Below are positions 15,412 to 31,443 of a stretch of 64,000 nt of DNA, in pieces; within the stretch, counting starts at the first letter, position 1, and each line of letters starts with the position of its first letter. Below the pieces are notes generated by a model that saw nothing but the letters and a program-made list of their open reading frames with translations, was not told the origin of the DNA and made no database searches. The DNA lies in NCBI RefSeq assembly GCF_000719955.1, contig NZ_JOII01000010.1, forward strand, positions 1-64,000, written 5' to 3'. This DNA is from Streptomyces albidoflavus. Its GTDB lineage: Bacteria; Actinomycetota; Actinomycetes; Streptomycetales; Streptomycetaceae. The translations under genes were made by a program, and so were the position numbers.

Positions 15412-16455
15412 ATGCCAGAGATCCCCAGCCGCAGAGGACTGCTCCTCGGTACCGCCGCCCTCGGCGCCGGCGCCTTCCTCACCGCCTGCACCAGCAACGA
15501 GACGAAGGAGGCCGCGGGTTCCACCGACAACCAGGCGGCCGCCGCCGACGACAAGCCCGGCAAGAAGGTCACCATCGGCTTCGCCGGCCCCCAGGCCGAC
15601 CACGGCTGGCTCAACGCCATCAACGTCAACGCCCGCGAGCGCGCCAAGAAGTACTCCGACGTCACCCTCGACATCACCGAGGGCTCCAACGACACCGCCG
15701 CCCAGATCGGCCAGATCGACACGCTGATCAACAAGAAGGTCGACGTCCTGGTCATCCTGCCCGCCGACGGCAAGGCGATGACCCAGGCCGGGCTGAAGGC
15801 GATGCGGGCCGGGATACCCGTCGTCAACCTCGACCGCGTCTTCGCCAGCCCGCAGGCGTACCGCTGCTGGGTCGGCGGCGACAACTACGGCATGGGGCTC
15901 AACGCCGGCCACTACATCGGCGAACTCCTCAAGGACAAGAAGAACGCCAAGGTCGTCGAGTTGTCCGGCCCCGACAACCTGGAGCTGACCAAGCAGCGCA
16001 CCCAGGGCTTCGACGACGCCCTGAAGAACTACCCGAACATCAAGAAGGTCGCCCGCCAGCAGGCCGAGTTCACCGTGGAGACCGGGCAGGCCAAGATGGC
16101 CCAGATCCTCCAGGCGCAGAAGAGCTTCGACGCCATGTGGAACCACGACGACGACCAGGGCGTCGGCGCGCTGCGCGCCATCGACCAGGCCGGCCGCGAC
16201 GACTTCGTGATGGTCGGCGGCGCCGGCGCGCTCTCCGCGATGGAGGCCATCCAGTCCGACAACAGCGTCCTGAAGGCGACCGTGCTCTACCCGCCGACCA
16301 TGGCGGCCTCCGCCATCGACCTGGCCCGCGCGCTGGGCCAGGGCAAGGGCGTCAGCGGCCTCGCCGAGCACGAGATCCCCACCTCGCTGACGCTCTACTC
16401 GGCCGTCGTCACCAAGGACAACGTCAAGGAATACCTGCCGACCGGCTTCAAGTAG
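15412..16455 (+). CDS. Sugar ABC transporter substrate-binding lipoprotein
   Basis: A 347-residue periplasmic-binding-protein-like sugar receptor (LacI/RbsB fold). The N-terminus has SRRG, a hydrophobic core and the lipobox LTAC with C26, so it is a lipoprotein, possibly Tat-exported. The mature part begins with a linker (SNETKEAAG) and then KVTIGFAGPQADHGW. Fold-1 motifs such as DTLINKKVDVLVILPAD and WNHDDDQGVGALRAI are visible. It delivers the sugar to the preceding ATPase/permease pair. A strong hairpin follows at 16501-16528. Confidence 0.9.
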   Translation: MPEIPSRRGLLLGTAALGAGAFLTACTSNETKEAAGSTDNQAAAADDKPGKKVTIGFAGPQADHGWLNAINVNARERAKKYSDVTLDITEGSNDTAAQIGQIDTLINKKVDVLVILPADGKAMTQAGLKAMRAGIPVVNLDRVFASPQAYRCWVGGDNYGMGLNAGHYIGELLKDKKNAKVVELSGPDNLELTKQRTQGFDDALKNYPNIKKVARQQAEFTVETGQAKMAQILQAQKSFDAMWNHDDDQGVGALRAIDQAGRDDFVMVGGAGALSAMEAIQSDNSVLKATVLYPPTMAASAIDLARALGQGKGVSGLAEHEIPTSLTLYSAVVTKDNVKEYLPTGFK

Positions 16456-16563: not shown

Positions 16564-17796
16564 ATGCGAGAGACGGAGCAGGAGGCGGCCGGCGGCCGCC
16601 CGGCACCGCCCGGGACCCCGCGTCTCGGTGTGGGCATGGTCGGTTACGCGTTCATGGGCGCCGCCCACTCCCACGGGTGGCGGACCGCCGGACGCGTCTT
16701 CGACCTGCCGCTCCAGCCGCATCTGGCCGCGGTCTGCGGCCGCGACCCCGAGGCGGTGCGCACGGCCGCGGCCAGGCTCGGCTGGGACGCGGCCGAGACC
16801 GACTGGCGGGCGCTTATCGCCCGCGAGGACGTCCAGCTGGTCGACATCTGCACCCCGGGTGACAGCCACGCCGAGATCGCCATCGCCGCCCTGGAGGCGG
16901 GCAAGCACGTGCTGTGCGAGAAGCCGCTCGCCAACACCGTCGAGGAGGCCGAGGCGATGGTGGCCGCGGCCGGCCGGGCCGAGGCGCGCGGCCAGGTCGC
17001 CATGGTCGGCTTCAACTACCGGCGTGTCCCGGCCGCCGCCTACGCCCGTTCGCTGGTGGCCGAGGGGCGCCTGGGCAGGCTGCGCCACGTGCGGGTCCGC
17101 TACCTCCAGGACTGGCTGGTCGACCCGGCCTCCCCGCTGACCTGGCGGCTGCGCAAGGAGAGCGCGGGCTCGGGGGCGCTCGGCGACCTCGGCGCGCACG
17201 CCGTCGACCTCGCGCAGTACCTCACCGGTGAGGCGGTCGCCGGGGTCTCGGCGCTCACCGAGACCTTCGTCAAGGAGCGGCCGCTGCTCGCCGGGGCCTC
17301 CTCGGGGCTGAGCGGCACCGGCTCCACCGAGACCGGGCCCGTCACCGTGGACGACGCGGCGGTCTTCACCGCCCGGTTCACCTCCGGGGCGCTCGGCACC
17401 TTCGAGGCCACCCGGTACGCCACCGGACGCAAGAACTCCCTCCAGGTCGAGCTGAACGGCGAACTCGGCTCCCTCGCCTTCGACCTGGAGCGGCTCAACG
17501 AACTCTCCTTCCACGACGAGACCGAGCCCGCGGTCACCAGCGGCTTCCGCCGCATCCTGGTGACCGAGCCGGAGCACCCGTACCTGGAGGGCTGGTGGCC
17601 GCCGGGCCACGGCCTCGGCTACGACCACACCTTCGTCCACCAGGCCCGCGACCTGGTGCACGCGGTCGCGGCGGGCACGAGCCCCGCCCCCTCGTTCGCC
17701 GACGGGCTCCGCGTCCAGCGGGTGCTGGCCGCCGTGGAGGAGAGTGCCGCCAAGAACGCCGTCTACACCCCCGTACCGGACCTGGAGGCGTCCTGA
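16564..17796 (+). CDS. Gfo/Idh/MocA-family oxidoreductase
   Basis: A 410-residue NAD(P)-dependent sugar or cyclitol dehydrogenase. The Rossmann motif [13 protein letters not shown] is at about residues 21-33, and the family EKPLANT motif (with the catalytic Lys) is near residue 121. The C-terminal alpha/beta domain includes [14 protein letters not shown], carrying the conserved His region. Members oxidise sugars at C1, C2 or C3, or myo-inositol. The ATG is preceded by AGGAGGAAGA. Its stop lies 1 nt before the isomerase ATG, so the two are co-translated and probably act in sequence. Confidence 0.9.
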
Positions 17797-17797
17797 C

Positions 17798-18802
17798 ATG
17801 CCGCGCGAATTCACCCTCTTCACCGGGCAGTGGGCGGACCTCCCCCTGGAGGAGGTCTGCCGCCTGGCCCGCGACTTCGGCTACGACGGGCTGGAACTGG
17901 CCTGCTGGGGCGACCACTTCGAGGTCGACAAGGCACTGGCCGACCCGTCCTACGTCGCCGGGCGCCACCAGCTGCTCGACAAGTACGGGCTGAAGTGCCG
18001 GGCCATCTCCTACCACCTGGTCGGCCAGGCGGTCTGCGACGCCATCATCGACGAGCGGCACCAGAACATCCTGCCCGCCCGCATCTGGGGCGACGGCGAG
18101 CCCGAAGGGGTCCGGCAGCGGGCCGCCGCCGAGATCAAGGACACCGCGCGGGCCGCGGCCGCCTTCGGCGTCGACACCGTCATCGGCTTCACCGGCTCGG
18201 CCATCTGGCACCTGGTGGCGATGTTCCCGCCGGTCCCCGACGGCATGATCGACCGCGGCTACCAGGACTTCGCCGACCGCTGGAACCCGATCCTCGACGT
18301 CTTCGACGCCGAGGGCGTCCGGTTCGCCCACGAGGTCCACCCGGGCGAGATCGCGTACGACTACTGGACCACCCACCGGGCGCTGGAGGCCGTCGGCCAC
18401 CGGCCCGCCTTCGGGCTCAACTTCGACCCGAGCCACTTCGTGTGGCAGGACCTCGACCCGGTCGGCTTCCTGTGGGACTTCAAGGACCGGATCTACCACG
18501 TGGACTGCAAGGAGGCCCGCAAGCGCCTCGACGGGCGCAACGGGCGGCTCGGCTCCCACCTCCCGTGGGGCGACCCGCGGCGCGGCTGGGACTTCGTCTC
18601 GGCCGGCCACGGCGACGTGCCGTGGGAGGACGTCTTCCGGATGCTCCGCTCGATCGGCTACGAAGGGCCCGTCTCGGTCGAGTGGGAGGACGCCGGGATG
18701 GACCGGCTGACCGGTGCCCCCGAGGCGCTGGCCGCCCTGCGCAAGCTCGACTGGGACCCGCCCCAGGCCTCCTTCGACGCGGCCTTCGGCGGCCGCGACT
18801 GA
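17798..18802 (+). CDS. TIM-barrel sugar phosphate isomerase/epimerase (AP endonuclease 2 fold)
   Basis: A 334-residue xylose-isomerase-like enzyme. It begins with [20 protein letters not shown] and carries acidic/His metal ligands typical of the fold: [30 protein letters not shown] and SVEWED. Such enzymes isomerise, epimerise or dehydrate keto sugars or inosose. Paired Gfo/Idh/MocA and TIM-barrel enzymes also act in C-glycoside and 3-keto-glucoside breakdown, which fits the DUF1080/ThuA protein downstream. The 1-nt gap to the upstream gene shows tight coupling. A 19-bp hairpin terminator follows. Confidence 0.88.
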
Positions 18803-18825
18803 CCGGGACGGCCTGAGCGCGAGGC

Positions 18826-18866
18826 CCCTGACCGGCCCTCCGGCACTGCCGGAGGGCCGGTCAGGG
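18826..18866 (+). terminator. Strong hairpin terminator after the oxidoreductase/isomerase pair
   Basis: A 19-bp perfect stem (18826-18844 with 18848-18866) with a 3-nt ACT loop. It ends the operon just before the regulatory region of the secreted dehydrogenase gene. There is no T-run. Confidence 0.8.
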
Positions 18867-18880
18867 CTGCCCGCACACCC

Positions 18881-18957
18881 CTTTGTCCTCTGCCGGGAAG
18901 AAGTTCAAGTTACCTGCTGTGCAAGGGGTTTCCGGCGGGAACAAAGGTCGCTACGGT
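18881..18957 (+). promoter_or_regulatory. Promoter and upstream element of the secreted dehydrogenase/ThuA gene
   Basis: TTTCCG (18929-18934), a 17-nt spacer and TACGGT (18952-18957) form a likely promoter. Upstream, CTTTGTCCT (18881-18889), TG two bases on, and GGAAGAAGT (18896-18904) match the region before the ROK gene at the same spacing: 71 nt from the start of CTTTGT to the -10 box in both. This is a candidate ROK operator. Confidence 0.5.
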
Positions 18958-19043
18958 CCAGAGCGAGACCAGTACGGCTCCCCGGGGTGACGGCGCACCC
19001 CGGCAGCACCCCCACCCGCACGACGTCTTCCCGGAGGAACTCC

Positions 19044-22000
19044 GTGCACAGGAAACGTCCAAGATTCCGCCAGGCGGTGGCGCTCCTCACCGGCGCCCTC
19101 CTCACCAGCGCCTCACTGGGCCTGGCCGCGCTCCCCGCGAGCGCCGCCGACCCGGAGGCCCTCGACAAGCCCGCCGCCGCCCCCACCTTCCAGCAGGTCA
19201 CCCTCGCCAAGGGCGTGGAGGAGACCGGCGAGCCGATGACCATGGCCGTCCTGCCCGACGGCGGTGTCCTGCACACCGCCCGCGAGGGCGCCCTGCGCCT
19301 CACCGACGCGGGCGGCACCACCAAGGTCGCCGGCACCCTCGACGTGTACAGCCACGACGAGGAGGGGCTCCAGGGAGTCGGGATCGACCCCGGCTTCGAG
19401 GAGAACCGCTTCATCTACCTGTACTACGCCCCCAAGCTCGACACCCCGTCCGGCGACGCCCCCGAGAACGGCACCGCCGCCGACTTCGAGCCCTACGACG
19501 GCGTCAACCGCCTCTCCCGGTTCGTCCTGGCCGAGGACGGCACGCTCGACAAGGCCAGCGAGCAGAAGATCCTCGACATCCCCGCCTCGCGCGGCATGTG
19601 CTGCCACGTCGGCGGCGACATCGCCTTCGACGCGGACGGCAACCTCTACCTGTCGACCGGCGACGACACCAATCCCTTCGCCTCCGACGGCTACACCCCC
19701 ATCGACGAGCGCGAGAACCGCAACCCGGCCTTCGACGCCCGCCGCAGCTCCGGCAACACCAACGACCTGCGCGGAAAGATCCTCCGCATCAAGGTCAAGG
19801 ACGACGGCTCGTACGACGTCCCCGAGGGCAACCTCTTCGCCCCCGGCACCGAGAAGACCCGTCCCGAGATCTACGCGATGGGCTTCCGCAACCCGTTCCG
19901 GATGAGCGTCGACCAGGCCACCGGCATCGTCTACGTCGGCGACTACGGCCCCGACGCCGGCTCCGCCGACCCGAACCGCGGTCCGGCCGGGCAGGTCGAG
20001 TTCGCCCGCGTCACCGAGGCCGGCAACTTCGGCTGGCCGTACTGCACCGGTGACAACGAGCCGTTCAACGACTACGACTTCGAGACCAAGGAGTCCGGCG
20101 AGCCCTTCGACTGCGACGCGCCGAAGAACACCTCGCGGCACAACACCGGCCTCACCGACCTGCCGCCGGCCCAGGCCGCCTGGATCCCGTACGACGGCGA
20201 CAGCGTCCCGGAGTTCGGCAACGGCTCGGAGTCGCCGATGGGCGGCCCGGTCTACCGCTACGACGCCTCTCTCGACTCGGCGGTGAAGTTCCCCGAGGAG
20301 TTCGACGGGAACTTCTTCGCCGGAGAGTTCGGCCGCCAGTGGATCAAGCGGATCGAGCAGGGCGAGGACGGCACCGTCGAGGCCATCAACGACTTCCCGT
20401 GGTCCGGCACCCAGGTCATGGACATGGAGTTCGGCCCGGACGGCGCCCTGTACGTCCTCGACTACGGCACCGGCTACTTCGGCGGCGACGCCAACTCGGC
20501 CGTCTATCGCATCGAGAACGCCACCGACGGCTACGCGCCGGTCGCGGTCGCCAAGGCCGACAAGACCTCGGGCCAGGGCCCGCTGGAGGTCACCTTCTCC
20601 TCCGAGGGCACCACGGACGCCGACGGCGACCCGCTCACCTACAGCTGGGACTTCGGTGACGGGGCCACCAGCGACGAGGAGAACCCCACCCACACCTTCG
20701 AGGAGAACGGGGTCTACTCGGCGACGCTGACCGCCACCGACCCGTCCGGCCTCAAGGGCACGGCCTCGGTCCAGGTGACCGTCGGCAACACCGCGCCGAC
20801 CGTCACCCTCCAGCAGCCGAAGGACGGCACACTCTTCAAGTTCGGTGACACGGTCTCCTTCAAGGTGGACGTGACCGACCCCGAGGACGAGTCCGTCGAC
20901 TGCTCCAAGGTCACCGTCCGCTACATCCTCGGCCACGACAACCACGGCCACCCGATCACCTCGGCAGAAGGCTGTGAGGGCACCCTCAACGTCCCCGCCG
21001 ACGGTGAGCACGACCCCAACGCCAACATCTTCGGCGTCATCGACGCCTCCTACACCGACACCGGCGCCAATGGCCAGCCCGCGCTGACCGGCTCCGACCA
21101 GATCCAGCTGCAGCCCCGCCACCGGCAGGCCGAGCACTACGGCGACTCCGAGGGCGTGGCCCCGCAGAACAAGTCCACCGCCCACGGCGGCAAGACCGTC
21201 GGCGACATCCACAACGGCGACTGGATCTCCTTCAAGCCGTACAACCTCTCCGGCGCCGACAAGTTCACCGCCCGTATCTCCTCCGGCGGCAGCGGCGGCA
21301 CCCTGGAGGTCCGCAGCGGATCGCCCACCGGCACCCTGCACGGCACCGCGACCGTCCCGGTCACCGGCGGCTGGGAGACCTTCGAGGACGTCGAGACCGA
21401 GCTGACCGACGTCGGCCCGGACACCACCGAACTCTTCCTCGTCTTCAAGGGCGAGGGCGACGGTGCCCTCTACGACGTGGACGACTTCGTCATCGACGGT
21501 GCCGCCCCGGCCGCCGCCGACAAGAAGCTCCTGGTCTTCTCCAAGACCGCCGGCTTCCGCCACGACTCCATCCCGGCCGGCATCGAGGCCCTGAAGGAGA
21601 TCGGCACGGAGAACGGCATCGAGGTCGACGCCACCGAGGACGCCGGCCAGTTCACCCCTCAGAAGCTCGCCGAGTACGACGCCGTCACCTTCCTCTCCAC
21701 CACCGGCGACGTCCTCGACGGCGACCAGCAGAAGGCGTTCGAGGAGTACGTGGCCGGGGGCGGCGGCTACGTCGGCGTCCACGCCGCCGCCGACACCGAG
21801 TACGAGTGGGAGTTCTACGGCGGCCTGGTCGGCGCCTACTTCGACTCCCACCCGCACATCCAGGAAGCCACCGTCGAGGTCGAGGACCACGACCACCCGG
21901 CCACCGCGCACCTCGGCGAGACCTGGGAGCGCACCGACGAGTGGTACAACTACCGCACCAACCCCCGTGAGCAGGCCCGCGTCCTCGCGACCCTGGACGA

Positions 22001-22769
22001 GTCCAGCTACGAGGGCGGCAACATGGACGGCGACCACCCGATCGCCTGGTGCCAGACCTACGAGGGCGGCCGCTCCTTCTACACCGGCGGCGGCCACACC
22101 GTCGAGTCCTTCGCCGAGGGCGACTTCCGCACCCACCTGGCCGGCGGCCTGAAGTACGCCACCGGCCTGGCCGACGCCGACTGCTCCCCGAAGGGCGGCG
22201 GCGAGGAGGAGGACGGCTACGAGCCGATCTTCGACGGAAAGACCCTCGACGGCTGGAAGCAGGCGGGCCCCGGCGAGTTCACCATCGACAACGGTGAACT
22301 GACGACCACCGGCGGCATGGGCCTGCTCTGGTACGAGGCCAAGGAGCTGTCCTCCTACTCCCTCAAGCTCGACTGGAAGATGGAGGGTGACGACAACTCC
22401 GGTGTCTTCGTGGGCTTCCCGGCCTCCGACGACCCCTGGTCGGCCGTGAACAACGGCTACGAGGTGCAGATCGACGCCACCGACGAACCCGACCGCACCA
22501 CCGGCGCCGTCTACACCTTCCAGTCCGCCGACATCGAGGCCCGCGACAAGGCCCTCAACCCGCCGGGGGAGTGGAACAGCTACGAGATCAAGGTCCAGGG
22601 CGAACGCCTCCAGGTCTTCCTCAACGGAGTCGAGATCAACGACTTCACCAACGAGGACCCGGCCCGCTCCCTGACCGACGGGTACGTCGGCCTCCAGAAC
22701 CACGGGGACGACGACCACGTGTCCTTCCGCGACATCCAGCTGAAGGAACTGCCCGCCCAGGGCGACTGA
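19044..22769 (+). CDS. Secreted multidomain PQQ-type sugar dehydrogenase / PKD / CBM6 / ThuA / DUF1080 protein
   Basis: A 1,241-residue exported protein starting at GTG after GGAGGAAC. A Sec signal peptide (residues 1-35, ending PASA-ADP) is clear. Domains in order: a glucose/sorbosone-dehydrogenase beta-propeller (about 45-490, with GMCCHVGGDIAFD and GFRNPFRM), a PKD domain (about 497-585, SWDFGDG), a CBM6-like domain (about 688-820), a ThuA-like domain (about 827-1045, with VGVHAAADTEYEW and a HTVESF segment), and a DUF1080/3-keto-disaccharide hydrolase domain (about 1058-1241, FDGKTLDGWK). ThuA and DUF1080 families act on 3-keto sugars, so this may be an extracellular saccharide-processing machine. 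No PQQ synthesis genes are in the window. Confidence 0.9.
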   Translation: MHRKRPRFRQAVALLTGALLTSASLGLAALPASAADPEALDKPAAAPTFQQVTLAKGVEETGEPMTMAVLPDGGVLHTAREGALRLTDAGGTTKVAGTLDVYSHDEEGLQGVGIDPGFEENRFIYLYYAPKLDTPSGDAPENGTAADFEPYDGVNRLSRFVLAEDGTLDKASEQKILDIPASRGMCCHVGGDIAFDADGNLYLSTGDDTNPFASDGYTPIDERENRNPAFDARRSSGNTNDLRGKILRIKVKDDGSYDVPEGNLFAPGTEKTRPEIYAMGFRNPFRMSVDQATGIVYVGDYGPDAGSADPNRGPAGQVEFARVTEAGNFGWPYCTGDNEPFNDYDFETKESGEPFDCDAPKNTSRHNTGLTDLPPAQAAWIPYDGDSVPEFGNGSESPMGGPVYRYDASLDSAVKFPEEFDGNFFAGEFGRQWIKRIEQGEDGTVEAINDFPWSGTQVMDMEFGPDGALYVLDYGTGYFGGDANSAVYRIENATDGYAPVAVAKADKTSGQGPLEVTFSSEGTTDADGDPLTYSWDFGDGATSDEENPTHTFEENGVYSATLTATDPSGLKGTASVQVTVGNTAPTVTLQQPKDGTLFKFGDTVSFKVDVTDPEDESVDCSKVTVRYILGHDNHGHPITSAEGCEGTLNVPADGEHDPNANIFGVIDASYTDTGANGQPALTGSDQIQLQPRHRQAEHYGDSEGVAPQNKSTAHGGKTVGDIHNGDWISFKPYNLSGADKFTARISSGGSGGTLEVRSGSPTGTLHGTATVPVTGGWETFEDVETELTDVGPDTTELFLVFKGEGDGALYDVDDFVIDGAAPAAADKKLLVFSKTAGFRHDSIPAGIEALKEIGTENGIEVDATEDAGQFTPQKLAEYDAVTFLSTTGDVLDGDQQKAFEEYVAGGGGYVGVHAAADTEYEWEFYGGLVGAYFDSHPHIQEATVEVEDHDHPATAHLGETWERTDEWYNYRTNPREQARVLATLDESSYEGGNMDGDHPIAWCQTYEGGRSFYTGGGHTVESFAEGDFRTHLAGGLKYATGLADADCSPKGGGEEEDGYEPIFDGKTLDGWKQAGPGEFTIDNGELTTTGGMGLLWYEAKELSSYSLKLDWKMEGDDNSGVFVGFPASDDPWSAVNNGYEVQIDATDEPDRTTGAVYTFQSADIEARDKALNPPGEWNSYEIKVQGERLQVFLNGVEINDFTNEDPARSLTDGYVGLQNHGDDDHVSFRDIQLKELPAQGD

Positions 22770-22771
22770 GC

Positions 22772-22809
22772 GACGGCGGGCGGCGGACGCCGGACCTCCG
22801 CCCGCCGTC
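22772..22809 (+). terminator. Hairpin terminator after the secreted dehydrogenase gene
   Basis: Arms 22772-22783 and 22798-22809 pair perfectly over 12 bp around a 14-nt loop, starting 3 nt after the stop codon. The remaining bases to 23059 hold no supported gene and must contain the promoter of the Ebo-type cluster, although no convincing boxes were seen. Confidence 0.7.
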
Positions 22810-23059
22810 TCACCCCTTTCCGGCACCCACCCACTCACCCCCACCGGGGACGGGCGGCCACCCGCCGCCCGTCCCCCGACCGGGGCCCGGTCCCGCCACG
22901 CGGACCCCGCCCCCTCCGGTTCCGCTTCCCGTTCCGGATGCTCACCCCCGGCCTCGTGGAGGCCCCGGCCGGCCCGGCGGCGGACGACCGCCGAGTCCCG
23001 GCCCCACGCACCACCGCCCCATCGGATCACTGCTGTTCGCTGGTAACAGGAGGCTGCCT

Positions 23060-24262
23060 GTGTCCACCGAGTCGTTCCCCACTCACACCCCCGCTCCCGC
23101 TCCCGCCCACGACCCCGGGCAGGCGCCCGCCGGACCCCGTACCGGCGTCTGGCTGATCGGCGCCAGAGGCTCCGTCGCCACCACCGCCGTCGCCGACTGC
23201 GCCGCCACGGTCGCCGGGCTCCATCCGCCGACCGGGCTCGTCACCGAGACCCGGCCCTTCGCCGGAGCGGGCCTCGCCCCGCTCTCCTCCCTGGTCTTCG
23301 GCGGCCACGACACCGCCGACTGCCCGCTGCCCAAGCGCGCCGAGGCGCTCGCCGAGGGCGGCGTCCTGCCGCACGGGCTGCCCACCGCCGTCCGCGCCGA
23401 ACTGGAGGCCGCCGACCGCGCCATCCGCCCCGGCGGCCCGCAGTCCGGAGACCCCCGCTCCACCGAGGAACTGGTCGACGCCTTCGCCGCCGACCTCACC
23501 GCCTTCCGCGAGGAGCACGGCCTCGCCCGCGTCGTCGTGATCAACGTCGCCTCCACCGAGCCCGCCCCCGCCGACGGCACCCTCCCCGCCAGCTCCCTCT
23601 ACGCCGCCGCCGCCCTGCGCGCCGGCTGCCCGTACGCCAACTTCACGCCCTCCACCGGCATCCACCACCCCGCCCTCGCCGAGCAGGCGCGCGCCTCGGG
23701 GCTGCCGTACGCCGGGCGGGACGGCAAGACCGGGCAGACCCTGCTGCGCTCGGTGCTCGGCCCGATGTTCCGCGACCGGGCCCTCGCGGTGCGCGCCTGG
23801 TCCGGCTCCAACCTGCTCGGCGGCGGGGACGGCGCGGCCCTGGCCGACCCGGCGGCCGCCGCGGCCAAGAACGCCGGCAAGGAACGCGTCCTCGCCGACA
23901 CCCTGCCCACCGTCCCCGAGGGCGAGGTGCACATCGACGACGTGCCGGCCCTCGGCGACTGGAAGACCGCCTGGGACCACATCGCCTTCGACGGCTTCCT
24001 CGGCACCCGCATGGTCCTCCAGACCATCTGGCAGGGGTGCGACTCCGCCCTCGCCGCGCCCCTCGTCCTCGACCTGGCCCGGCTCCTCGCCCGCGCCCAC
24101 GAGGCCGGGATCGGCGGCCCCCTCGGCGAACTGGCCTTCTACTTCAAGGACCCCGACGCCCTCCAGGCCCCGGACGGCGTCTCCCCCGCCACCCCCGCCG
24201 GCCTCGCCGAGCAGTACCAGCTCCTCCTGGGCTTCGCCCGCCGCCTGGGGGCCGCCGCGTGA
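23060..24262 (+). CDS. Inositol-3-phosphate synthase-like protein (INO1 family), first gene of an Ebo-type cluster
   Basis: A 400-residue homologue of myo-inositol-1-phosphate synthase, which turns glucose-6-phosphate into a carbocycle by NAD-dependent oxidation, aldol closure and reduction. The N-terminal Rossmann motif is GARGSVATT (about residues 34-42). The family's NFTPSTGIHHPAL-type and DGKTGQTLLRSVL regions, and WSGSNLLGGGDG, follow in order. These match the conserved NFTPS and GDDFKSGQT regions of INO1. The GTG start follows AGGAGGCTGCC. It overlaps the UbiA-like gene (GTGA). Its substrate could be another sugar phosphate. Confidence 0.82.
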   Translation: MSTESFPTHTPAPAPAHDPGQAPAGPRTGVWLIGARGSVATTAVADCAATVAGLHPPTGLVTETRPFAGAGLAPLSSLVFGGHDTADCPLPKRAEALAEGGVLPHGLPTAVRAELEAADRAIRPGGPQSGDPRSTEELVDAFAADLTAFREEHGLARVVVINVASTEPAPADGTLPASSLYAAAALRAGCPYANFTPSTGIHHPALAEQARASGLPYAGRDGKTGQTLLRSVLGPMFRDRALAVRAWSGSNLLGGGDGAALADPAAAAAKNAGKERVLADTLPTVPEGEVHIDDVPALGDWKTAWDHIAFDGFLGTRMVLQTIWQGCDSALAAPLVLDLARLLARAHEAGIGGPLGELAFYFKDPDALQAPDGVSPATPAGLAEQYQLLLGFARRLGAAA

Positions 24263-25215
24263 CCCCGCCCCGCACCCCGGGCGGCCGGCTCGCCGCCTGG
24301 GCCGAACTCCTGCGCGTCTCGGCCGCGTTCAGTGTCCCCGGCGACGCCCTCGCGGGCGCCGCCGCCTCGGGCGCGCGCCCCGGCCGTCGCACCCTGCTCG
24401 CCGCCGGCTCCTCGCTCTGCCTCTACGAGGCCGGGATGGCCCTCAACGACTGGGCCGACCGCGAGGAGGACCGGGCCGAACGCCCGCACCGCCCGCTGCC
24501 CTCCGGCCGGATCAGCCCCACCGCCGCCCTCACCGCGGCCGCCGGACTGACCGCCGCCGGGCTCGGCCTCGCCGCCGCCGCCGGACGCCCCGCCCTCGCC
24601 ACCGCCTCCGCCCTGGCCGGCACCGTCTGGCTCTACGACCTGAGACTGGCCGGTACGCCGGCGGGCCCGGCCGGGATGGCCGCCGCCCGCACCCTCGACG
24701 TGCTCCTCGGCGCCACCGCCACCGCCCGCACCGGCGCGGCGGCCCGCACGGCGCTGCCCGCCGCCGCCCTGCTCGGCGCGCACACCTACGCCGTGACATC
24801 GGTGTCACGCCACGAGACCCGCGGCGGCTCCACCCGCGCCCCGCTCGCCGCCCTCGCCACCACCGCGGCCACCGCCGCCACCGTGGCCGGGCTGCGGCGC
24901 GGCGCGCCCACCCGACTCCCGGCGGACCGGCGGGAAGCAGCCGCCCCCGGTCCGCCGGGTCCTCGTGCGGCGAGGACCGCCGCCCGGGTCGGCCTCGCCG
25001 CCCTGTACGGCACCACGGCCGCCGTGCCCTACCTGCACGCCGCGCTCAACCCCTCGCCGCCGCTCACCCAGCGGGCCGTCGGCGGCGGCATCCGCGCCAT
25101 GATCCCCCTCCAGGCGGCCCTCTCCGCCCGCGCCGGAGCCCTCGGCGGGGCGCTCGCCACCCTCGCGCTGGTGCCACTCGCCCGCCTCGCCGGAAAGAAG
25201 GTGAGCGCCACATGA
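24259..25215 (+). CDS. eboC: UbiA-type prenyltransferase, EboC-like
   Basis: A 318-residue membrane prenyltransferase of the UbiA superfamily with about eight hydrophobic segments. The first Asp-rich motif is NDWADREED (about residues 64-72), followed by RPHRPLPSG, which together bind the prenyl diphosphate through magnesium. The usual second Asp motif is weak (VWLYDLRLAG). EboC proteins are UbiA-like members of Ebo clusters. The GTG start overlaps the upstream stop and its own stop overlaps the next ATG, so the gene is translationally coupled on both sides. The prenyl acceptor is unknown, possibly a cyclitol. Confidence 0.8.
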   Translation: MTPPRTPGGRLAAWAELLRVSAAFSVPGDALAGAAASGARPGRRTLLAAGSSLCLYEAGMALNDWADREEDRAERPHRPLPSGRISPTAALTAAAGLTAAGLGLAAAAGRPALATASALAGTVWLYDLRLAGTPAGPAGMAAARTLDVLLGATATARTGAAARTALPAAALLGAHTYAVTSVSRHETRGGSTRAPLAALATTAATAATVAGLRRGAPTRLPADRREAAAPGPPGPRAARTAARVGLAALYGTTAAVPYLHAALNPSPPLTQRAVGGGIRAMIPLQAALSARAGALGGALATLALVPLARLAGKKVSAT

Positions 25216-26102
25216 CCGCCGCCTCCGCCCCGCTCCGCCTCGGCTACGGCACCAACGGCCTCACCGACCTCCGCCTCGACGACGCCCTCGCCCTCCTCGC
25301 CGGCCTCGGCTACGACGGCGTGGGACTGACCCTCGACCACATGCACCACGACCCGCTCGCCCCCGGCCTCGCCGCCCGCACCGCCCGCATCGCCGGACGC
25401 CTCGCGGAACTGGGCCTCGCGGTGACCGTCGAGACCGGCGCCCGGTACGTCCTGGACCCGCGCGAGAAGCACGGCCCCGGCCTGCTCGACCCCGACCCGG
25501 ACCGGCGGGCCCGGCGCACCGGCCTGCTCGCCACCGCCGCCCAGGTCGCCGCCGACCTCGGCGCGCACGCCCTGCACTGCTTCACCGGGGCCCCGCCGCC
25601 CGGCGTCACCACGGAGGAGGCGTGGGCCGCGCTGCCCGACGCCCTCGCACCGGTCCTGGAGGCGTCCCGGACCACCGGCGTCCCCCTCGCACTGGAGCCC
25701 GAACCCGGCCACCTGGTCGCCACCCTCGCCGACTTCCACCGGCTGCGCACCCTGCTGGGCGACCCCGGCGAACTCGGCCTGACCCTGGACATCGGCCACT
25801 GCCAGTGCCTGGAGCCCGAGCCGCCCGCCGCCTGCGTGCGCGAGGCCGCGCCCTGGCTGCGGCACGTCCAGATCGAGGACATGCGGCGCGGCGTCCACGA
25901 GCATCTGCCCTTCGGTGAGGGCGAGATCGACTTCCCCCCGGTCCTCGCCGCCCTCGCCGCCACCGGCTACCAGGGGCTCACCGTCGTCGAACTGCCCCGC
26001 CACTCGCACGCCGGGCCCACCCAGGCCGCCCACGCCCTGCCCTTCCTGCGGCGCGCCGCCCGCGAGGCCGGCGCCGCCCTCACCCCGGCCGGACCCGCAT
26101 GA
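25212..26102 (+). CDS. TIM-barrel sugar phosphate isomerase/epimerase in the Ebo-type cluster
   Basis: A 296-residue xylose-isomerase-like protein. Supporting segments are LGYGTNGLTDLRLDDAL, LEPEPGHLV, GLTLDIGHCQCLEPE, HVQIEDMRRGVHEHLPFGEGEIDF and VVELPRHSH. The E, D-H, D and E ligands follow the AP endonuclease 2 metal-site pattern. The ATG overlaps the upstream stop by 4 nt. It would isomerise or epimerise a sugar or cyclitol intermediate of the cluster. It differs from EboE, which has the same fold and lies three genes on. Confidence 0.85.
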   Translation: MTAASAPLRLGYGTNGLTDLRLDDALALLAGLGYDGVGLTLDHMHHDPLAPGLAARTARIAGRLAELGLAVTVETGARYVLDPREKHGPGLLDPDPDRRARRTGLLATAAQVAADLGAHALHCFTGAPPPGVTTEEAWAALPDALAPVLEASRTTGVPLALEPEPGHLVATLADFHRLRTLLGDPGELGLTLDIGHCQCLEPEPPAACVREAAPWLRHVQIEDMRRGVHEHLPFGEGEIDFPPVLAALAATGYQGLTVVELPRHSHAGPTQAAHALPFLRRAAREAGAALTPAGPA

Positions 26103-26151
26103 GGCGGCCCGCACTCCCCATCCGCGCCACGCCGCGACAGGAGGACCCCGC

Positions 26152-26829
26152 ATGAACCACCCCACCTCCGCCCCGCCGCAGCCCGACCCGGCCGCGATCC
26201 GCCGCACCCTCGCCGGACAGCTCGACGCCGACGCCCGCGTCTGGCTCGACACCGCCCTCACCGAGGCCGCCGAGGACCCCGGCACCGGGCCCCTGCCCGT
26301 CTGGGAGCGCCGCTTCGCCGAGGCCGGACGCGTGGTCGGCGCCGACCACGCCGACACCGCCCGCGTCCTGCTGCTCCACGCGGCCGGCGCCGGCACCGCC
26401 ACGCTCACCCGCCTCTACCAGGAGGGCAGCGGCGCCGAACGCCGCGCCGTGCTCGACGCGCTGGCCCTCACCGTGGCAGGACCCGACGCCGTCGGCCTGG
26501 TCGAGGACGCCCTGCGCGCCAACGACACCGGCATCGTCGCCGCCGCCGTCGGCCCGTACGCCGCCCGTCACCTGGACGCGCACGCCTGGCGGCACGCCGT
26601 CCTCAAGTGCCTGTTCACCGGCGTCCCGCTGACCGCCGTCGCCCAGCTCGCCGAACGCGCCGCCGGCGACGGCGAACTCGACCGGATGCTGGCCGACTTC
26701 GCCGCCGAACGCGCCGCCGCGGGCCGCGCCGTCCCCGCGGACCTCACCGCCGCCCGGGCCCTCACCGAGGCCGCGCCCCCCGGCCGTACCACGACCCCGC
26801 CCGCCGGCGGCGGCGCCAAGGAGAACTGA
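26152..26829 (+). CDS. eboA: EboA domain-containing protein
   Basis: A 225-residue soluble protein built almost wholly of helices. The EboA signature is visible in DADARVWLDTAL at the N-terminus, GRVVGADHADTARVLLLHAA, RHLDAHAWRHAVLKCLFTG (about residues 142-160) and a C-terminal ER-x-A-GR-x-VP-x-D segment. EboA is a family marker of ebo clusters; no biochemical activity is established for it, and in cyanobacteria ebo genes are needed to move the scytonemin monomer to the periplasm. A good ribosome site (GACAGGAGGA) precedes the ATG after a 49-nt gap, the largest gap within the cluster. Confidence 0.85.
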   Translation: MNHPTSAPPQPDPAAIRRTLAGQLDADARVWLDTALTEAAEDPGTGPLPVWERRFAEAGRVVGADHADTARVLLLHAAGAGTATLTRLYQEGSGAERRAVLDALALTVAGPDAVGLVEDALRANDTGIVAAAVGPYAARHLDAHAWRHAVLKCLFTGVPLTAVAQLAERAAGDGELDRMLADFAAERAAAGRAVPADLTAARALTEAAPPGRTTTPPAGGGAKEN

Positions 26830-27701
26830 TGCGCATCTTCGACCCCCACATCCACATGACCTCCCGCACCACCGACGACTACCAGGCCATGTACGACGCC
26901 GGAGTGCGCGCCCTCGTCGAACCCGCCTTCTGGCTCGGCCAGCCCCGCACCTCGCCCGAGAGCTTCCGCGACTACTTCGACGCGCTGCTCGGCTGGGAGC
27001 CCTTCCGCGCCGCCCAGTACGGCATCGCCCACCGCTGCACCCTCGCCCTCAACCCCAAGGAGGCCAACGACCCGCGCTGCACCCCGGTCCTCGACCTCCT
27101 GCCGCGCTACCTCCTCAAGGACAACGTGGTCGCCGTCGGGGAGATCGGCTACGACTCCATGACCCCGGCCGAGGACGCCGCCCTCACCGCGCAGCTCCAG
27201 CTCGCCGCCGACCACGGCCTGCCCGCCATGGTCCACACCCCGCACCGGGACAAGCTCAGCGGGCTGCGCCGCACCCTCGACGTGGTCCGCGAGTCCGCCC
27301 TCGACGTCGAACGCGTCCTCATCGACCACCTCAACGAGACCACCGTCAAGGAGGCCAAGGCCTCCGGCGCCTGGCTCGGCTTCTCCATCTACCCCGACAC
27401 CAAGATGGACGAGGAGCGCATGGTCGCCGTCCTCACCGAGTACGGCCCCGAGAAGGTCCTGGTCAACTCCGCCGCCGACTGGGGCAAGAGCGACCCGCTG
27501 AAGACCCGCGCCGTCGGCGACGCCCTGCTCGCCGCCGGCTTCGACGAGGACACCGTCGACCAGGTGCTGTGGCGCAACCCGGTCGCCTTCTACGGCCTCA
27601 GCGGCCGCCTCGGCGACCTGACCGTGCCCGCCCCCACCGGCCCCGCCGAGCACGAGGGCAACAGCATCCAGCGGGGCGCGCCCCGCACGGCGGGGGAGTG
27701 A
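26829..27701 (+). CDS. TatD-family metal-dependent hydrolase (EboB-like)
   Basis: A 290-residue amidohydrolase-fold enzyme. The HxH metal motif is H7/H9 in FDPHIHM. E105 lies in VGEIGYD, His ligands in MVHTPHRD and LIDHLNE, and the terminal Asp in NSAADWG. The TatD-like protein of ebo clusters is called EboB and its substrate is unknown. The ATG overlaps the eboA stop by 1 nt (TGATG). Despite the TatD name, a DNase role is not implied here. Confidence 0.83.
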   Translation: MRIFDPHIHMTSRTTDDYQAMYDAGVRALVEPAFWLGQPRTSPESFRDYFDALLGWEPFRAAQYGIAHRCTLALNPKEANDPRCTPVLDLLPRYLLKDNVVAVGEIGYDSMTPAEDAALTAQLQLAADHGLPAMVHTPHRDKLSGLRRTLDVVRESALDVERVLIDHLNETTVKEAKASGAWLGFSIYPDTKMDEERMVAVLTEYGPEKVLVNSAADWGKSDPLKTRAVGDALLAAGFDEDTVDQVLWRNPVAFYGLSGRLGDLTVPAPTGPAEHEGNSIQRGAPRTAGE

Positions 27702-27705
27702 GCCG

Positions 27706-28881
27706 ATGCGCTTCCGCCACCCCGACGGCTCCACCGTCCACCTCGCCTACTGCACCAACGTCCATCCCGCCGAGACCCTCGACGGGGTCCGCGCCCAGCT
27801 CCGCGACCACTGCGAGCCCATCCGCAAGCGCCTGGGCCGCGACCGGCTCGGCATCGGGCTGTGGCTCGCCCGCGACGCGGCCTCCGCCCTCGTCGCCGAC
27901 CCCGCCGCCCTGCGCACCCTCCGCGGCGACCTAGACCGGCGCGGCCTCGAGGTCGTCACCCTCAACGGCTTCCCCTACGAGGGATTCGGCGAGGCCGAGG
28001 TCAAGTACCGCGTCTACCGGCCCGACTGGACCGAGCGCACCCGCCTCACCCACACCACCGACCTCGCCCGCCTCCTCGCCTCCCTGCTCCCCGACGACGT
28101 CACCGAGGGCTCCGTCTCCACCCTTCCCTTCGCCTGGCGCACCGACTACGACAGCGGCCGCCACCGCACCGCGCTGGGCGCCCTCACCACCCTCGCCGAA
28201 CGGCTCGACGCCCTCGCCGACCTCACCGGCCGCTCCATCCGCATCGGCCTGGAGCCCGAACCGGGCTGCACCGTCGAGACCACCGCCGACGCCGTCGCCG
28301 CCCTCGCCCCGCTCGGCGACACCACCGCCCACCGCATCGGCGTCTGCCTCGACACCTGCCACCTCGCCACCTCCTTCGAGAACCCCGCCCGGGCGCTGGG
28401 CACCCTGGAGGCGGGCGGCGTCCGCATCGTCAAGGCCCAGCTCTCCGCCGCCCTGCACGCCGAGGAACCCCACCGGGCCGAGGTCCGCGAGGCCCTCGCC
28501 GCCTTCGACGAACCCCGCTTCCTCCACCAGACCCGCACCACCACCCCGGCCGGACTGCGCGGCACCGACGACCTCGACGAGGCCCTCACCGGCGGCCTCC
28601 CCGACACCGGACCGTGGCGCTCCCACTTCCACATCCCGCTCCACGCCGACCCCGAACCGCCCCTCACCTCCACCCTCCCGGTGCTCCGCGAGACCCTCGC
28701 CGGCCTCGTCGGCGGCCCCGTGCCGCGCACCCACCACCTGGAGGTCGAGACGTACACCTGGCAGGCCCTGCCGCCCGCGCTGCGCCCCAAGGCCCGCGCC
28801 CGCCTCACCGAGGGCATCGCCGCCGAACTCACCCTCGCCCGCGATCTCCTCATCGACCTGGGCCTCAAGGAGCTGCCGTGA
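27706..28881 (+). CDS. eboE: Metabolite traffic protein EboE (TIM-barrel)
   Basis: A 391-residue member of the EboE family, an AP-endonuclease/xylose-isomerase-like fold. It starts with the typical LAYCTNVHPAETLDGV, continues with LNGFPYEGFGEAEVKY and YRPDW, and has the metal-site regions GLEPEPGCTVE, GVCLDTCHLATSFE and VKAQLSAAL. The ATG lies 4 nt after the TatD-like stop with GGGGGAGTGAG ahead of it. EboE is a diagnostic member of ebo clusters and is proposed to take part in processing or moving a small metabolite. The alternative, a plain sugar epimerase, is not excluded. Confidence 0.87.
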   Translation: MRFRHPDGSTVHLAYCTNVHPAETLDGVRAQLRDHCEPIRKRLGRDRLGIGLWLARDAASALVADPAALRTLRGDLDRRGLEVVTLNGFPYEGFGEAEVKYRVYRPDWTERTRLTHTTDLARLLASLLPDDVTEGSVSTLPFAWRTDYDSGRHRTALGALTTLAERLDALADLTGRSIRIGLEPEPGCTVETTADAVAALAPLGDTTAHRIGVCLDTCHLATSFENPARALGTLEAGGVRIVKAQLSAALHAEEPHRAEVREALAAFDEPRFLHQTRTTTPAGLRGTDDLDEALTGGLPDTGPWRSHFHIPLHADPEPPLTSTLPVLRETLAGLVGGPVPRTHHLEVETYTWQALPPALRPKARARLTEGIAAELTLARDLLIDLGLKELP

Positions 28882-30308
28882 CCGCCGACCGACCCCAGCC
28901 GCTCCTCGTCCTCGACGTCGTCGGCCTCACCCCGCGCCTGCTGGAGCACATGCCGCGCCTCGCCGCCCTCGGCGCCCGCGGCAGCCGCTCCCCGCTCGGC
29001 ACCGTCCTGCCCGCCGTCACCTGCTCCGCCCAGTCGACCTTCCTCACCGGCACCCTCCCCGCCGACCACGGCATCGTCGGCAACGGCTGGTACTTCCGCG
29101 AACTCGGCGACGTCCTCCTGTGGCGCCAGCACAACGGCCTCGTCAGCGGCGACCGCCTCTGGGACGCCGCCCGCCGCGCCCACCCCGGCTACACCGTCGC
29201 CAACATCTGCTGGTGGTACGCGATGGGCGCCGACACCGACTGGACCGTCACCCCGCGCCCCGTCTACTACGCCGACGGCCGCAAGGAACCCGACTGCTAC
29301 ACCCGCCCGCCCGAGCTCCACGACGAACTCACCGAGAAACTCGGCACCTTCCCCCTCTTCCACTTCTGGGGCCCCGGCGCCGACCTCGTCTCCTCCCAGT
29401 GGATCATCGACGCCACCCGCCACGTCATGGCCACCCGCGACCCCGACCTCACCCTCGCCTACCTGCCCCACCTCGACTACGACCTCCAGCGGTTCGGCCC
29501 CGACGACCCCCGCTCGCACGCCGCCGCCCGCGAACTCGACGAGGCCGTCGGCCCGCTGCTGGACCAGGCCGAGGCGTCCGGCCGCACCGTCGTCGTCCTC
29601 TCCGAGTACGGCATCACCTCCGTCAGCCGCCCCGTCCACCTCAACCGGGTGCTGCGCGAGGCGGGGCTGCTGGAGGTCCACACCCAGGACGGCATGGAGT
29701 ACCTCGACACGATGGCCTCCCGCGCCTTCGCCGTCGCCGACCACCAGCTCGCCCACGTCTACGTCAAGCGCCCCGAGGACCTCGACACGGTCCGCGCCCT
29801 GCTCGCCGGCGTGCCCGGCGTCGACACCCTGCTGGACGAGGAGGGCAAGAAGGAGCAGGGCCTGGACCACCCGCGCTCCGGGGAGTTCGTCGCCGTCGCC
29901 GAACCGGACGCCTGGTTCACGTACTACTACTGGCTCGACGACGCCCGCGCCCCCGACTTCGCCCAGCTCGTCGAGATCCACCGCAAACCGGGCTACGACC
30001 CCGTCGAGCTCTTCATGGACCCGAACGACCCCTACGTGAAGCTCCGCGCGGGCGCCGCCGTCGCCCGCAAGAAGCTCGGCATGCGCTACCGGATGGCCGT
30101 CGTCCCGCTCGACGCCTCGCCCATCCGCGGCAGCCACGGCCGTCTGCCCGCCGACGAGGCCGACGGCCCGCTCCTCCTCAGCTCCCGCCCCGGAGCCACC
30201 GAAGGCCCCGTGGCGGCCACCGACGTCAAGGCGCTCCTGCTGCGCCTCGCCGGTCTCACCACCACCCCCGCACCCGACACCGCCCCTTCCCGGGAGGACC
30301 GTTCATGA
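28878..30308 (+). CDS. Alkaline-phosphatase-superfamily phosphodiesterase/nucleotide pyrophosphatase-like (EboF-like position)
   Basis: A 476-residue protein of the NPP branch. D13 (VLDVVG) and the nucleophile T48 (LPAVTCSAQST) fit the family, and a C-terminal RGSHGRLP supplies a metal His. The middle ligand sites differ: LDYDLQRFG replaces the usual D-x3-H, and LSEYGIT replaces the canonical S-D-H-G. Activity may therefore be altered. No signal peptide was seen, so it is cytosolic. The GTG start overlaps the eboE stop (GTGA) and its own stop overlaps the next ATG. It would remove phosphate or a nucleotide from the pathway intermediate. Confidence 0.82.
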   Translation: MTADRPQPLLVLDVVGLTPRLLEHMPRLAALGARGSRSPLGTVLPAVTCSAQSTFLTGTLPADHGIVGNGWYFRELGDVLLWRQHNGLVSGDRLWDAARRAHPGYTVANICWWYAMGADTDWTVTPRPVYYADGRKEPDCYTRPPELHDELTEKLGTFPLFHFWGPGADLVSSQWIIDATRHVMATRDPDLTLAYLPHLDYDLQRFGPDDPRSHAAARELDEAVGPLLDQAEASGRTVVVLSEYGITSVSRPVHLNRVLREAGLLEVHTQDGMEYLDTMASRAFAVADHQLAHVYVKRPEDLDTVRALLAGVPGVDTLLDEEGKKEQGLDHPRSGEFVAVAEPDAWFTYYYWLDDARAPDFAQLVEIHRKPGYDPVELFMDPNDPYVKLRAGAAVARKKLGMRYRMAVVPLDASPIRGSHGRLPADEADGPLLLSSRPGATEGPVAATDVKALLLRLAGLTTTPAPDTAPSREDRS

Positions 30309-31384
30309 GCCGCACACCCCGCCACCTCCGCGACGTGACCGACCCCGAGCTGAGCAGCCGCCTCAGCCGCCGCAACATGCTCGGCGTCGCGGCCGGCACC
30401 GGCGCCGCCGCCCTGCTCGCCGCCGCGGCCTCCGCCTCCCCGGCCCTCGCCGCCGGCACCGACCTGGCCACCCAGGGCAAGGGCAAGCCCGGCAAGGGCG
30501 ACCCCGTGCTGCCCCCCGGCCGCCTCGGCATCCAGCTCTACAGCCTCCGCGACAAGGTCGCCACCCTCGGCTTCGCCACCGTCTTCAAGGAACTCGCCCT
30601 CTACGGCTACGACGAGATCGAGTTCGCCGGCTACACCCAGGGCGAGGCCGGCCCCCTCACCCTGCGCCAGCTCAAGCGCCTCGCCCGCGACCACGGCCTG
30701 AAGCCCATCGGCAGCCACGTCAACTACTACGACGACAACAACCCCGACGCCTACAGCTTCGCCCAGAACCTCGACAAGGTCCTCGACGAGGCCGCCGAAC
30801 TGGGCCTGCCGCACATCGGCACCGCCTCCGGCCCCTGGCGCTACGGCGACACCGTCGACGGCTGGAAGCGCTGCGCCGAGGAGTTCAACCACTACGGCGC
30901 CGAGGCGAAGAAGCGCGGCTTGAAGTTCTACCAGCACAACCACGCCGAGGAGTTCTCCTTCGCCTCCGACCGGCCCGACGTCCGCCTCTACGACGTCCTG
31001 CTCGCCGAGACCGACCCGGACCTGGTCCACCTGGAGATGGACATCTACTGGGCCTACTGCGCCCAGTTCCGCTTCTCCAAGCGCGCCGACGGCACCCCGG
31101 ACCCGCTCGACCCGCTGGCGTACGTCCTCAAGCAGCCCCACCGCTACCCGCTCTTCCACGTCAAGGACGGCGAGCACGACGAGACGACCACCGACGGCTA
31201 CCGCATGACCGACGTCGGTGACGGTGACATCGACTACCGGCACTTCATCTCCACCGTCACCGGCCTGCGCGGCCACCGCTACGCCCACCACTGGCAGACC
31301 GAGCACGACAACCCCACCGACTCCCTCCGCTTCGCCCGCCGCTCCAGCGCCCACCTGCACTCCCTCCGCAAGAAGAAGCACTGA
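30305..31384 (+). CDS. Tat-exported TIM-barrel sugar phosphate isomerase/epimerase
   Basis: A 359-residue protein with a twin-arginine signal (LSRRNMLGVAAG, then a hydrophobic stretch ending ASPALAA). An export role fits the periplasmic theme of ebo systems. The barrel domain from about residue 76 (GRLGIQLYSLRD) carries DEIEFAG, GSHVNYY, FYQHNHAEE, HLEMDIYWA and FHVKDGEHDE as metal/substrate regions. It is the last gene of the cluster, overlapping the phosphodiesterase stop by 4 nt, and is followed by a 17-bp hairpin. Cytosolic and exported barrel enzymes in one operon suggest steps on both sides of the membrane. Confidence 0.87.
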   Translation: MSRTPRHLRDVTDPELSSRLSRRNMLGVAAGTGAAALLAAAASASPALAAGTDLATQGKGKPGKGDPVLPPGRLGIQLYSLRDKVATLGFATVFKELALYGYDEIEFAGYTQGEAGPLTLRQLKRLARDHGLKPIGSHVNYYDDNNPDAYSFAQNLDKVLDEAAELGLPHIGTASGPWRYGDTVDGWKRCAEEFNHYGAEAKKRGLKFYQHNHAEEFSFASDRPDVRLYDVLLAETDPDLVHLEMDIYWAYCAQFRFSKRADGTPDPLDPLAYVLKQPHRYPLFHVKDGEHDETTTDGYRMTDVGDGDIDYRHFISTVTGLRGHRYAHHWQTEHDNPTDSLRFARRSSAHLHSLRKKKH

Positions 31385-31395: not shown

Positions 31396-31443
31396 CGGGA
31401 GGGCGCGGAAAGAGGCCGTGGGGGCCCTTTCCGCGCCCTCCCG
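31396..31443 (+). terminator. Terminator of the Ebo-type cluster
   Basis: A 17-bp perfect stem (31396-31412 with 31427-31443) with a 14-nt loop begins 11 nt after the last stop codon of the cluster. Confidence 0.8.

Follow-up and report, generated by a model that had tools for sequence, protein, structure and literature searches.

Which enzyme closes the ring in an ebo-type operon that has no EboD, and what would such an operon make? The question is raised by eight genes at positions 23,060-31,384 of a 64,000-nucleotide (nt) stretch of Streptomyces albidoflavus DNA (assembly GCF_000719955.1, contig NZ_JOII01000010.1, positions 1 to 64,000, forward strand; hereafter the window). The ebo operon eboABCDEF has been described from eustigmatophyte plastids, Bacteroidota and Cyanobacteria (PMC5133447; this and the other papers are cited from the parts of their texts available to us). 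The window cluster shares with it EboA, EboB, EboE, EboF, a gene of the UbiA superfamily and the clustering on one strand, and both contain a ring-closing sugar-phosphate enzyme. It differs in having an INO1-like protein for EboD, an extra TIM barrel, an SCO3242-family prenyltransferase for EboC and another gene order; unlike eboABCDEF, it was found only in Actinomycetota in the samples taken. Overall, the cluster is a real and conserved variant of the Ebo system, and apparently an undescribed one. Judged from its sequence, it is probably an INO1-type Ebo system in which an Archaeoglobus-type inositol-phosphate synthase takes the place of EboD, and which would make a prenylated, modified inositol phosphate.

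An INO1-like enzyme at the head of the cluster

The eight genes (open frames checked, start codons picked by eye) all lie on the + strand in the order INO1-like, UbiA, TIM1, EboA, EboB/TatD, EboE, EboF and TIM2. From first to last the junctions measure -4, -4, +49, -1, +4, -4 and -4 nt; five of the seven are overlaps and a sixth is a gap of 4 nt, in agreement with a preliminary description of this DNA that had counted six of seven as overlapping or almost touching. That description had also placed an INO1-like gene at the head of a cluster without EboD. This is what we find: the INO1-like gene comes first, at 23060, and PF01761, the EboD domain, matches nowhere in the locus and only once in the whole genome, on contig C13. 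A second PF01761 gene elsewhere in the genome, as a displaced EboD, is thereby ruled out. New with respect to the preliminary description are two further xylose-isomerase-like TIM barrels, the sister-family relationship of the UbiA protein to EboC, and flanking inverted repeats, two of them within the 290-nt gap that separates INO1 from the ThuA gene ahead of it. Because this closely packed set is bracketed by inverted repeats, upstream of INO1 and beyond the TIM2 stop codon, the eight genes look like a single transcription unit.

Both domains of the INO1-like protein score above their curated cut-offs (PF07994 116 bits, PF01658 97 bits). Its best solved relative is the myo-inositol-phosphate synthase (mIPS) of Archaeoglobus fulgidus (1u1i, 194 bits), against only 41 bits for INO1 of Mycobacterium tuberculosis (1gr0), and the mycothiol-type model TIGR03450 is missed by far (36 bits, cut-off 638). 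The resident INO1 of the same genome, on contig C9, has the reverse profile (TIGR03450 723 bits; 1gr0 603 bits, 1u1i 40 bits) and is 25% identical to the cluster protein over 197 positions. In a tree the cluster INO1s form one side of a branch with support 85/90, apart from the resident protein. Together, the model scores, the scores to the two structures and the tree grouping exclude an ordinary actinobacterial INO1. Residues K270, K274, K302 and K363 align with K274, K278, K306 and K367 of the A. fulgidus enzyme, which we take to be its catalytic lysines. The preliminary description had named a lack of the active-site lysines as grounds for abandoning the idea; every one of the 26 cluster-clade proteins has all four, together with D221, N251, D257 and D328, and the lysines are likewise invariant in a set of 15 (15 of 15). 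All checked active-site positions are thus common to the cluster protein and the A. fulgidus mIPS, but the latter is a stand-alone inositol phosphate enzyme whereas the cluster INO1 sits inside an ebo operon.

The prenyltransferase belongs to the UbiA superfamily (PF01040), as had been proposed, but not to EboC proper: it reaches 376 bits with the 'SCO3242 family' model NF045897 (cut-off 260) and only 103 bits with the EboC model NF035940 (cut-off 250); it is a member of a sister family of EboC. NF045897 is also passed by the UbiA proteins of four other loci of the INO1-type clade (L012, L013, L033 and L037; 271 to 347 bits), and is missed by that of the EboD-type locus L021 (86 bits). The donor motif (N63, D64, D67, D71, R75, R78) and R144 are common to 13 SCO3242-type and 17 EboC-type rows. 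Four positions differ by type: 22 (Ala in the SCO3242 type, Asn in the EboC type), 147 (Asp; Asn or Val), 175 (His; Tyr or Phe) and 285 (Gln; Asp or Asn). Positions 144 and 147 may, by their spacing, correspond to an Arg142/Asp145 pair that has been assigned to the prenyl acceptor (PMC6282210), although the Nostoc row has Asn and the equation is uncertain. The pattern would fit two enzyme types with the same prenyl donor chemistry and different acceptors. EboC/UbiA-297 of Flavobacteria (PMC9235831) and the archaeal digeranylgeranylglyceryl phosphate (DGGGP) synthase 6m31 share the UbiA fold, the NDxxDxxxD motif and the invariant Arg144 with the window protein; 6m31, however, matches it only at E 0.0013.

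EboE, EboA and UbiA match curated NCBI models; for EboB, EboF and the three TIM barrels the names come from Pfam. EboE passes NF035939 (cut-off 250; scores in Table 1), with PF01261 matching as well, and EboA passes the EboA domain model NF035938 (cut-off 50); the presence of both, claimed beforehand, is thus upheld. The stricter NF035937 (EboA_family) is missed, at 56 bits against a cut-off of 320. The predicted EboA model (predicted local distance difference test, pLDDT, 92.1) is an all-helical solenoid with E96, R122, N124, K152, R169, E186, R187 and R192 as invariant charged residues; fold comparisons of this model gave no decisive structural relative. The TatD-like hydrolase and the phosphodiesterase-like protein of the preliminary description likewise correspond to matches, to PF01026 (EboB) and PF01663 (EboF). 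Relatives of EboB occupy the same slot of EboD-type loci by tblastn, and relatives of EboF are present there too; no curated EboB model is matched by the window protein. Its best solved relative is the uncharacterised A. fulgidus protein AF_1765 (PDB 3guw, 92 bits), so that A. fulgidus supplies the closest solved relatives of both EboB and INO1. An archaeal link of the Ebo system is possible on this basis.

TIM1 shows weak likeness, below cut-off, to hydroxypyruvate isomerase and IolE (TIGR03234/TIGR04379). TIM2 has an N-terminus of the twin-arginine type, as judged by eye; strong relatives (at least 394 bits) are found at the same place in 10 other Streptomyces loci, and weak ones (147-163 bits) in three more.

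Two cyclases in two groups of loci

EboE was sought in 396 genomes of Actinomycetota and matched in 27 of these, 26 of them above cut-off; among the 20 Streptomyces genomes of the sample, 16 have it. This gave 29 EboE loci including the window, and for the other 28 the surrounding 20 kb (some ending at contig ends) were compared by tblastn. An intact INO1 is present in 25 loci (window counted), a truncated INO1 in one (L019), EboD in one (L021) and neither cyclase in two; of the 25 with an intact INO1, 24 share the order INO1-UbiA-TIM1-EboA-EboB-EboE-EboF. The window locus is therefore no one-off. PF01761 occurs near EboE in just one of the 27 EboE-positive genomes (G301).

The control was a search with the window's INO1 through the same 396 genomes at the same settings. 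An Archaeoglobus-type relative at 1e-25 is found in 84 of them, and the cluster type (best segment at least 50% identical) in 25 of 27 EboE-positive and 0 of 369 EboE-negative genomes; the 50% line was drawn after the list had been seen, and the best EboE-negative genomes reach 46%. Fisher's test gives p of about 1e-37 for this co-occurrence, a value too small given the kinship among Streptomyces. Six families (f1, f3, f6, f8, f18 and f33) are represented among the 25 genomes.

A second scan, of named genomes, had the EboE of L021 as its first row and leans to the EboD type: the best 80 of 580 loci comprise 76 with EboD (two of them short pieces at contig ends, L073 and L111, and one, L040, the same locus as L021), none with INO1 and four with neither. 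TIM1 had no separate match in these best 80 of 580. The six Chloroflexota loci, obtained from 301 genomes with one sub-cut-off genome left out, have EboD and no INO1 (0/6); two of them repeat L042 and L043. EboD found routinely beside the INO1-like gene had been put forward as evidence that would overturn the proposal, and such a pairing occurs in none of the three sets: 0/29 in Actinomycetota, 0/80 among the best 80 of 580 and 0/6 in Chloroflexota. With NF045897 as the only probe, an SCO3242-family prenyltransferase above cut-off was found in 0 of 296 Bacteroidota and 0 of 247 Acidobacteriota genomes; EboC-like proteins score 120-168 bits with it in 24 Bacteroidota and 157-186 bits in four Acidobacteriota genomes. 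The INO1 type was not seen outside Actinomycetota in these samples, Cyanobacteria, Pseudomonadota and Archaea not having been surveyed genome-wide.

The EboE tree (59 rows, with 32 loci hand-picked for spread from the scan and the Chloroflexota stage; L059 dropped at a length filter, the broken L039 left out, the long branch L037 and uneven composition flagged) sets 26 INO1-type rows and L013 opposite 29 EboD-type and three cyclase-less rows, across a branch with a Shimodaira-Hasegawa-like approximate likelihood ratio test (SH-aLRT) value of 100. The cyclase state changes once on this tree if cyclase-less rows are omitted, and five times if these count as a third state. The two EboE clades, each with its own cyclase, mark a distinct INO1-type Ebo system. 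Consequently, the earlier claim of a non-homologous replacement of the cyclase stands only in part: INO1 does occupy the slot of EboD, but there is one deep split, in which either cyclase may have come first, and TIM1 and the UbiA residues differ as well.

L021 (6977-11452), in a Solirubrobacteraceae metagenome-assembled genome, stands alone among the sampled actinobacterial loci in being of the EboD type; it has the order EboD-EboB-EboE-UbiA-EboF and no match to EboA. Its EboE groups with rows from Thermomicrobiota, Acidobacteriota and Herpetosiphon, which suggests that the locus was acquired by transfer. L013 is a second, cyclase-less ebo-like cluster of Streptomyces G123, which has a full INO1-type cluster elsewhere (L014); open reading frames upstream of L013 read, by eye, as inositol-monophosphatase-like and amine-oxidase-like.

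Candidate product and competing explanations

The proposed route starts from INO1, which would convert glucose 6-phosphate to inositol 3-phosphate and feed a membrane-bound pathway. The SCO3242-type UbiA might then place a prenyl group onto this phosphorylated polyol, as the archaeal DGGGP synthase does on its own polyol, after which EboF could remove or rearrange the phosphate. TIM1 and EboE (metal-dependent isomerase/epimerase-like) together with EboB (hydrolase-like) would trim or isomerise the head group, with EboA as a putative HEAT-like scaffold or binding protein. The product would be a membrane prenylated cyclitol for metabolite traffic or protection, by analogy with the role reported for cyanobacterial ebo genes. 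That role is known only from mutants: scytonemin export is lost in Nostoc punctiforme and nematode resistance in Pseudomonas (PMC6282210).

An isoprenoid-cyclitol product had already been proposed from EboD and EboC, with sedoheptulose 7-phosphate as the substrate of EboD, in a paper that also describes EboD-less operons and an EboG variant (PMC5133447). The prenylated cyclitol or carba-sugar suggested in the preliminary description is therefore not a new idea. A cyclitol does become the likelier product because two unrelated ring-closing enzymes fill the same slot, and INO1 in that slot lends independent support to the printed guess. On the other hand, INO1 gives a phosphorylated C6 ring and EboD is proposed for a C7 sugar phosphate, so the products of the two need not be the same.

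Several observations weigh against the reading as a prenylated inositol phosphate. The four lysines and D221, N251, D257 and D328 are kept in 12 of 12 non-cluster INO1 rows too, and therefore mark a working enzyme type and not its product. INO1 keeps the phosphate and the C6 ring, so that EboD-type clusters may make something different, and a relative of the mIPS family, 6k96, is titled 'five-membered-cyclitol-phosphate synthase' (75 bits to the profile), which makes other rings possible. An EboC homologue farnesylates quinolines and prefers quinoline acids in vitro, a preference that does not point to a cyclitol (PMC9235831). Among the actinobacterial loci, L013 and L039 have neither cyclase (in L039 EboE itself is broken) and L018 lacks TIM1 in the cluster. 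Finally, what is shown for the INO1-type clusters is gene content and its conservation, and the product is a prediction from these.

A sizeable chance, though below even, goes to the explanation that INO1-type and EboD-type loci are two pathways, which share ancestral EboA, EboB, EboE, EboF and UbiA but lead to different end products, so that 'replacement' is the wrong picture. It would account for the deep EboE split with no switching inside either clade, the finding of TIM1 only with INO1, the type-specific UbiA residues, the different neighbours, and the phosphate and C6 ring kept by INO1 as against the C7 sugar phosphate proposed as substrate of EboD (PMC5133447). Against this, five shared and tightly clustered genes imply a common chemical logic after cyclisation, and a carbocycle is the endpoint of both cyclases.

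It is unlikely, secondly, that the product of the INO1-like enzyme is not inositol 3-phosphate but some other carbocycle, such as a five-membered or differently substituted ring. The existence of 6k96 and the separate clade formed by the cluster INO1s would allow it; the A. fulgidus myo-inositol-1-phosphate synthase nonetheless scores far above 6k96, both with the single sequence (194 against 41 bits) and in the profile comparison (325 against 75 bits).

Still less probable is a role of the whole system in sugar catabolism, with glycosides taken up and opened via 3-keto or inosose intermediates and prenylation as a side branch. Sugar-related genes are certainly close at hand: upstream of the unit, all 12 extended Streptomyces loci of the window type have, arranged as in the window, a sugar-type ATP-binding cassette (ABC) importer, a Gfo/Idh/MocA oxidoreductase, TIM3 and a ThuA/3-keto-disaccharide hydrolase gene; the set flanks both loci of family f6 in rearranged form; and three or four xylose-isomerase-like barrels share one neighbourhood. 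Yet INO1-UbiA-EboA-EboB-EboE-EboF persist in L012, L015 and L018 (extended) and in L035 and L037 (not extended), where the importer and Gfo/Idh set is absent within the fetched stretches, and INO1 is anabolic and UbiA a membrane prenyltransferase.

A general inositol supply (mycothiol, phosphatidylinositol) with an incidental place in the operon is very improbable: the protein is a bona fide member of the mIPS family with all checked catalytic positions, but of the 25 genomes that carry the cluster-type gene, 24 have a further PF01658 gene (not each typed), the window's genome has its own mycothiol-type INO1, and the cluster-type gene tracks EboE and heads the same order in several families. 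Genome G237 (L012) has no PF01658 gene besides the cluster INO1, which may there serve inositol supply as well.

INO1 names a candidate head group, inositol phosphate, which lends itself to feeding, labelling and detection, and the variant occurs in 16 of the 20 Streptomyces genomes sampled, so that tractable laboratory strains can serve to test it. A wider conjecture, which we regard as doubtful, is that both Ebo kinds make a prenylated cyclitol and that the actinobacterial one is a prenyl-inositol lipid; as a carrier or cofactor in the membrane it would work together with the co-clustered importer, Gfo/Idh and secreted 3-keto-glycoside enzymes in moving or processing glycosides at the cell envelope. 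If so, INO1 in the slot of EboD would reveal the head group of a lipid that has lacked an identity since the first description of the ebo genes. No report of a prenyl-inositol lipid in bacterial membranes was found in the literature searched.

NCBI names the family of the window's UbiA after SCO3242 of Streptomyces coelicolor. The region of SCO3242 and SCO3243 presumably also takes in SCO3237-SCO3241. SCO3242 and SCO3243, of the same two gene kinds as the UbiA and INO1-like genes of the window and adjacent by locus number in the calcium-dependent antibiotic (CDA) region, are given as 'Putative transferase' and 'Myo-inositol phosphate synthase' and counted as CDA-cluster genes, with no Ebo assignment in the passage available (PMC3610822). 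The enzyme named for inositol in S. coelicolor is InoA, of the SCO3899/3900 operon (PMC7581861). Saccharomonospora loci have been compared, INO1 being unmentioned in the available part of the text (PMC9235831), and the word 'inositol' is absent from the main texts of PMC5133447, PMC6282210 and PMC9235831. We found no paper linking INO1 to ebo genes in the literature searched, in which subscription journals are little covered.

Features of the window and neighbouring genes

Table 1. Features of the Ebo unit and of the sugar-gene neighbourhood (positions in the window; aa, amino acids)
Feature	Position	Strand	Evidence and remarks
INO1-like, Archaeoglobus-type myo-inositol-phosphate synthase family	23060..24262	+	400 aa; GTG start; first in unit; PF07994/PF01658
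UbiA-superfamily prenyltransferase, SCO3242 family, EboC-like	24259..25215	+	318 aa; NF045897 376 bits; NDxxDxxxD motif
TIM1, xylose-isomerase-like TIM barrel	25212..26102	+	296 aa; PF01261 140 bits
EboA, predicted all-helical HEAT-like solenoid	26152..26829	+	225 aa; NF035938 152 bits
EboB, TatD-like metal-dependent hydrolase	26829..27701	+	290 aa; PF01026 45 bits
EboE, xylose-isomerase-like TIM barrel	27706..28881	+	391 aa; NF035939 421 bits
EboF, type I phosphodiesterase / nucleotide pyrophosphatase family	28878..30308	+	476 aa; PF01663 236 bits
TIM2, third xylose-isomerase-like TIM barrel of unit	30305..31384	+	359 aa; PF01261 65 bits
Inverted repeat, likely terminator	31396..31443	+	12 nt past last stop codon; 22-nt arms, 91% complementary
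Two inverted repeats, possible terminator of upstream unit	22772..22809, 22846..22876	+	15- and 13-nt arms
ABC importer ATPase	12779..14302	+	PF00005 177 bits, two stretches
ABC importer permease	14299..15345	+	PF02653 124 bits
Sugar-type substrate-binding protein of ABC importer	15412..16455	+	PF13407 160 bits
Gfo/Idh/MocA oxidoreductase	16564..17796	+	PF01408, PF22725, PF02894
TIM3, xylose-isomerase-like TIM barrel	17798..18802	+	PF01261 148 bits
Open reading frame with glucose/sorbosone dehydrogenase, PKD, CBM6, ThuA and 3-keto-disaccharide hydrolase domains	18714..22769	+	PF07995, PF18911, PF03422, PF06283, PF06439

The true start of the large ThuA-type reading frame lies further in than its listed position, and its protein looks secreted. 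Relatives of it (at least 600 bits) are found on the same strand in 17 of the 25 loci with an intact INO1, window counted; PF06439 genes number three in all in the window's genome.

Genome G335 has two loci of this kind. In L019 the genes from UbiA to EboF are kept and INO1 is cut to its first 116 residues, while L120 has an intact cluster-clade INO1 with TIM2-like (163 bits) and ThuA-like (645 bits) genes; genes for the permease, the binding protein, TIM3 and Gfo/Idh are present in both. The complementary gene content suggests that the superlocus was duplicated and that the copies then lost different genes, with a single intact INO1 retained.

Further upstream in the window lies a FabH-like 3-oxoacyl-ACP (acyl carrier protein) synthase III gene (9967-10917); of the 12 extended Streptomyces loci, 9 have a relative of it on their upstream side. 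Downstream of the Ebo unit there is a tRNA-Leu(gag) at 31580-31668, followed by a gene for a BrkB/YihY-type membrane protein (32298-33446) and a second sugar-type ABC system (34777-39586), whose permease and binding-protein domains are found in one open reading frame of 653 aa (37625-39586).

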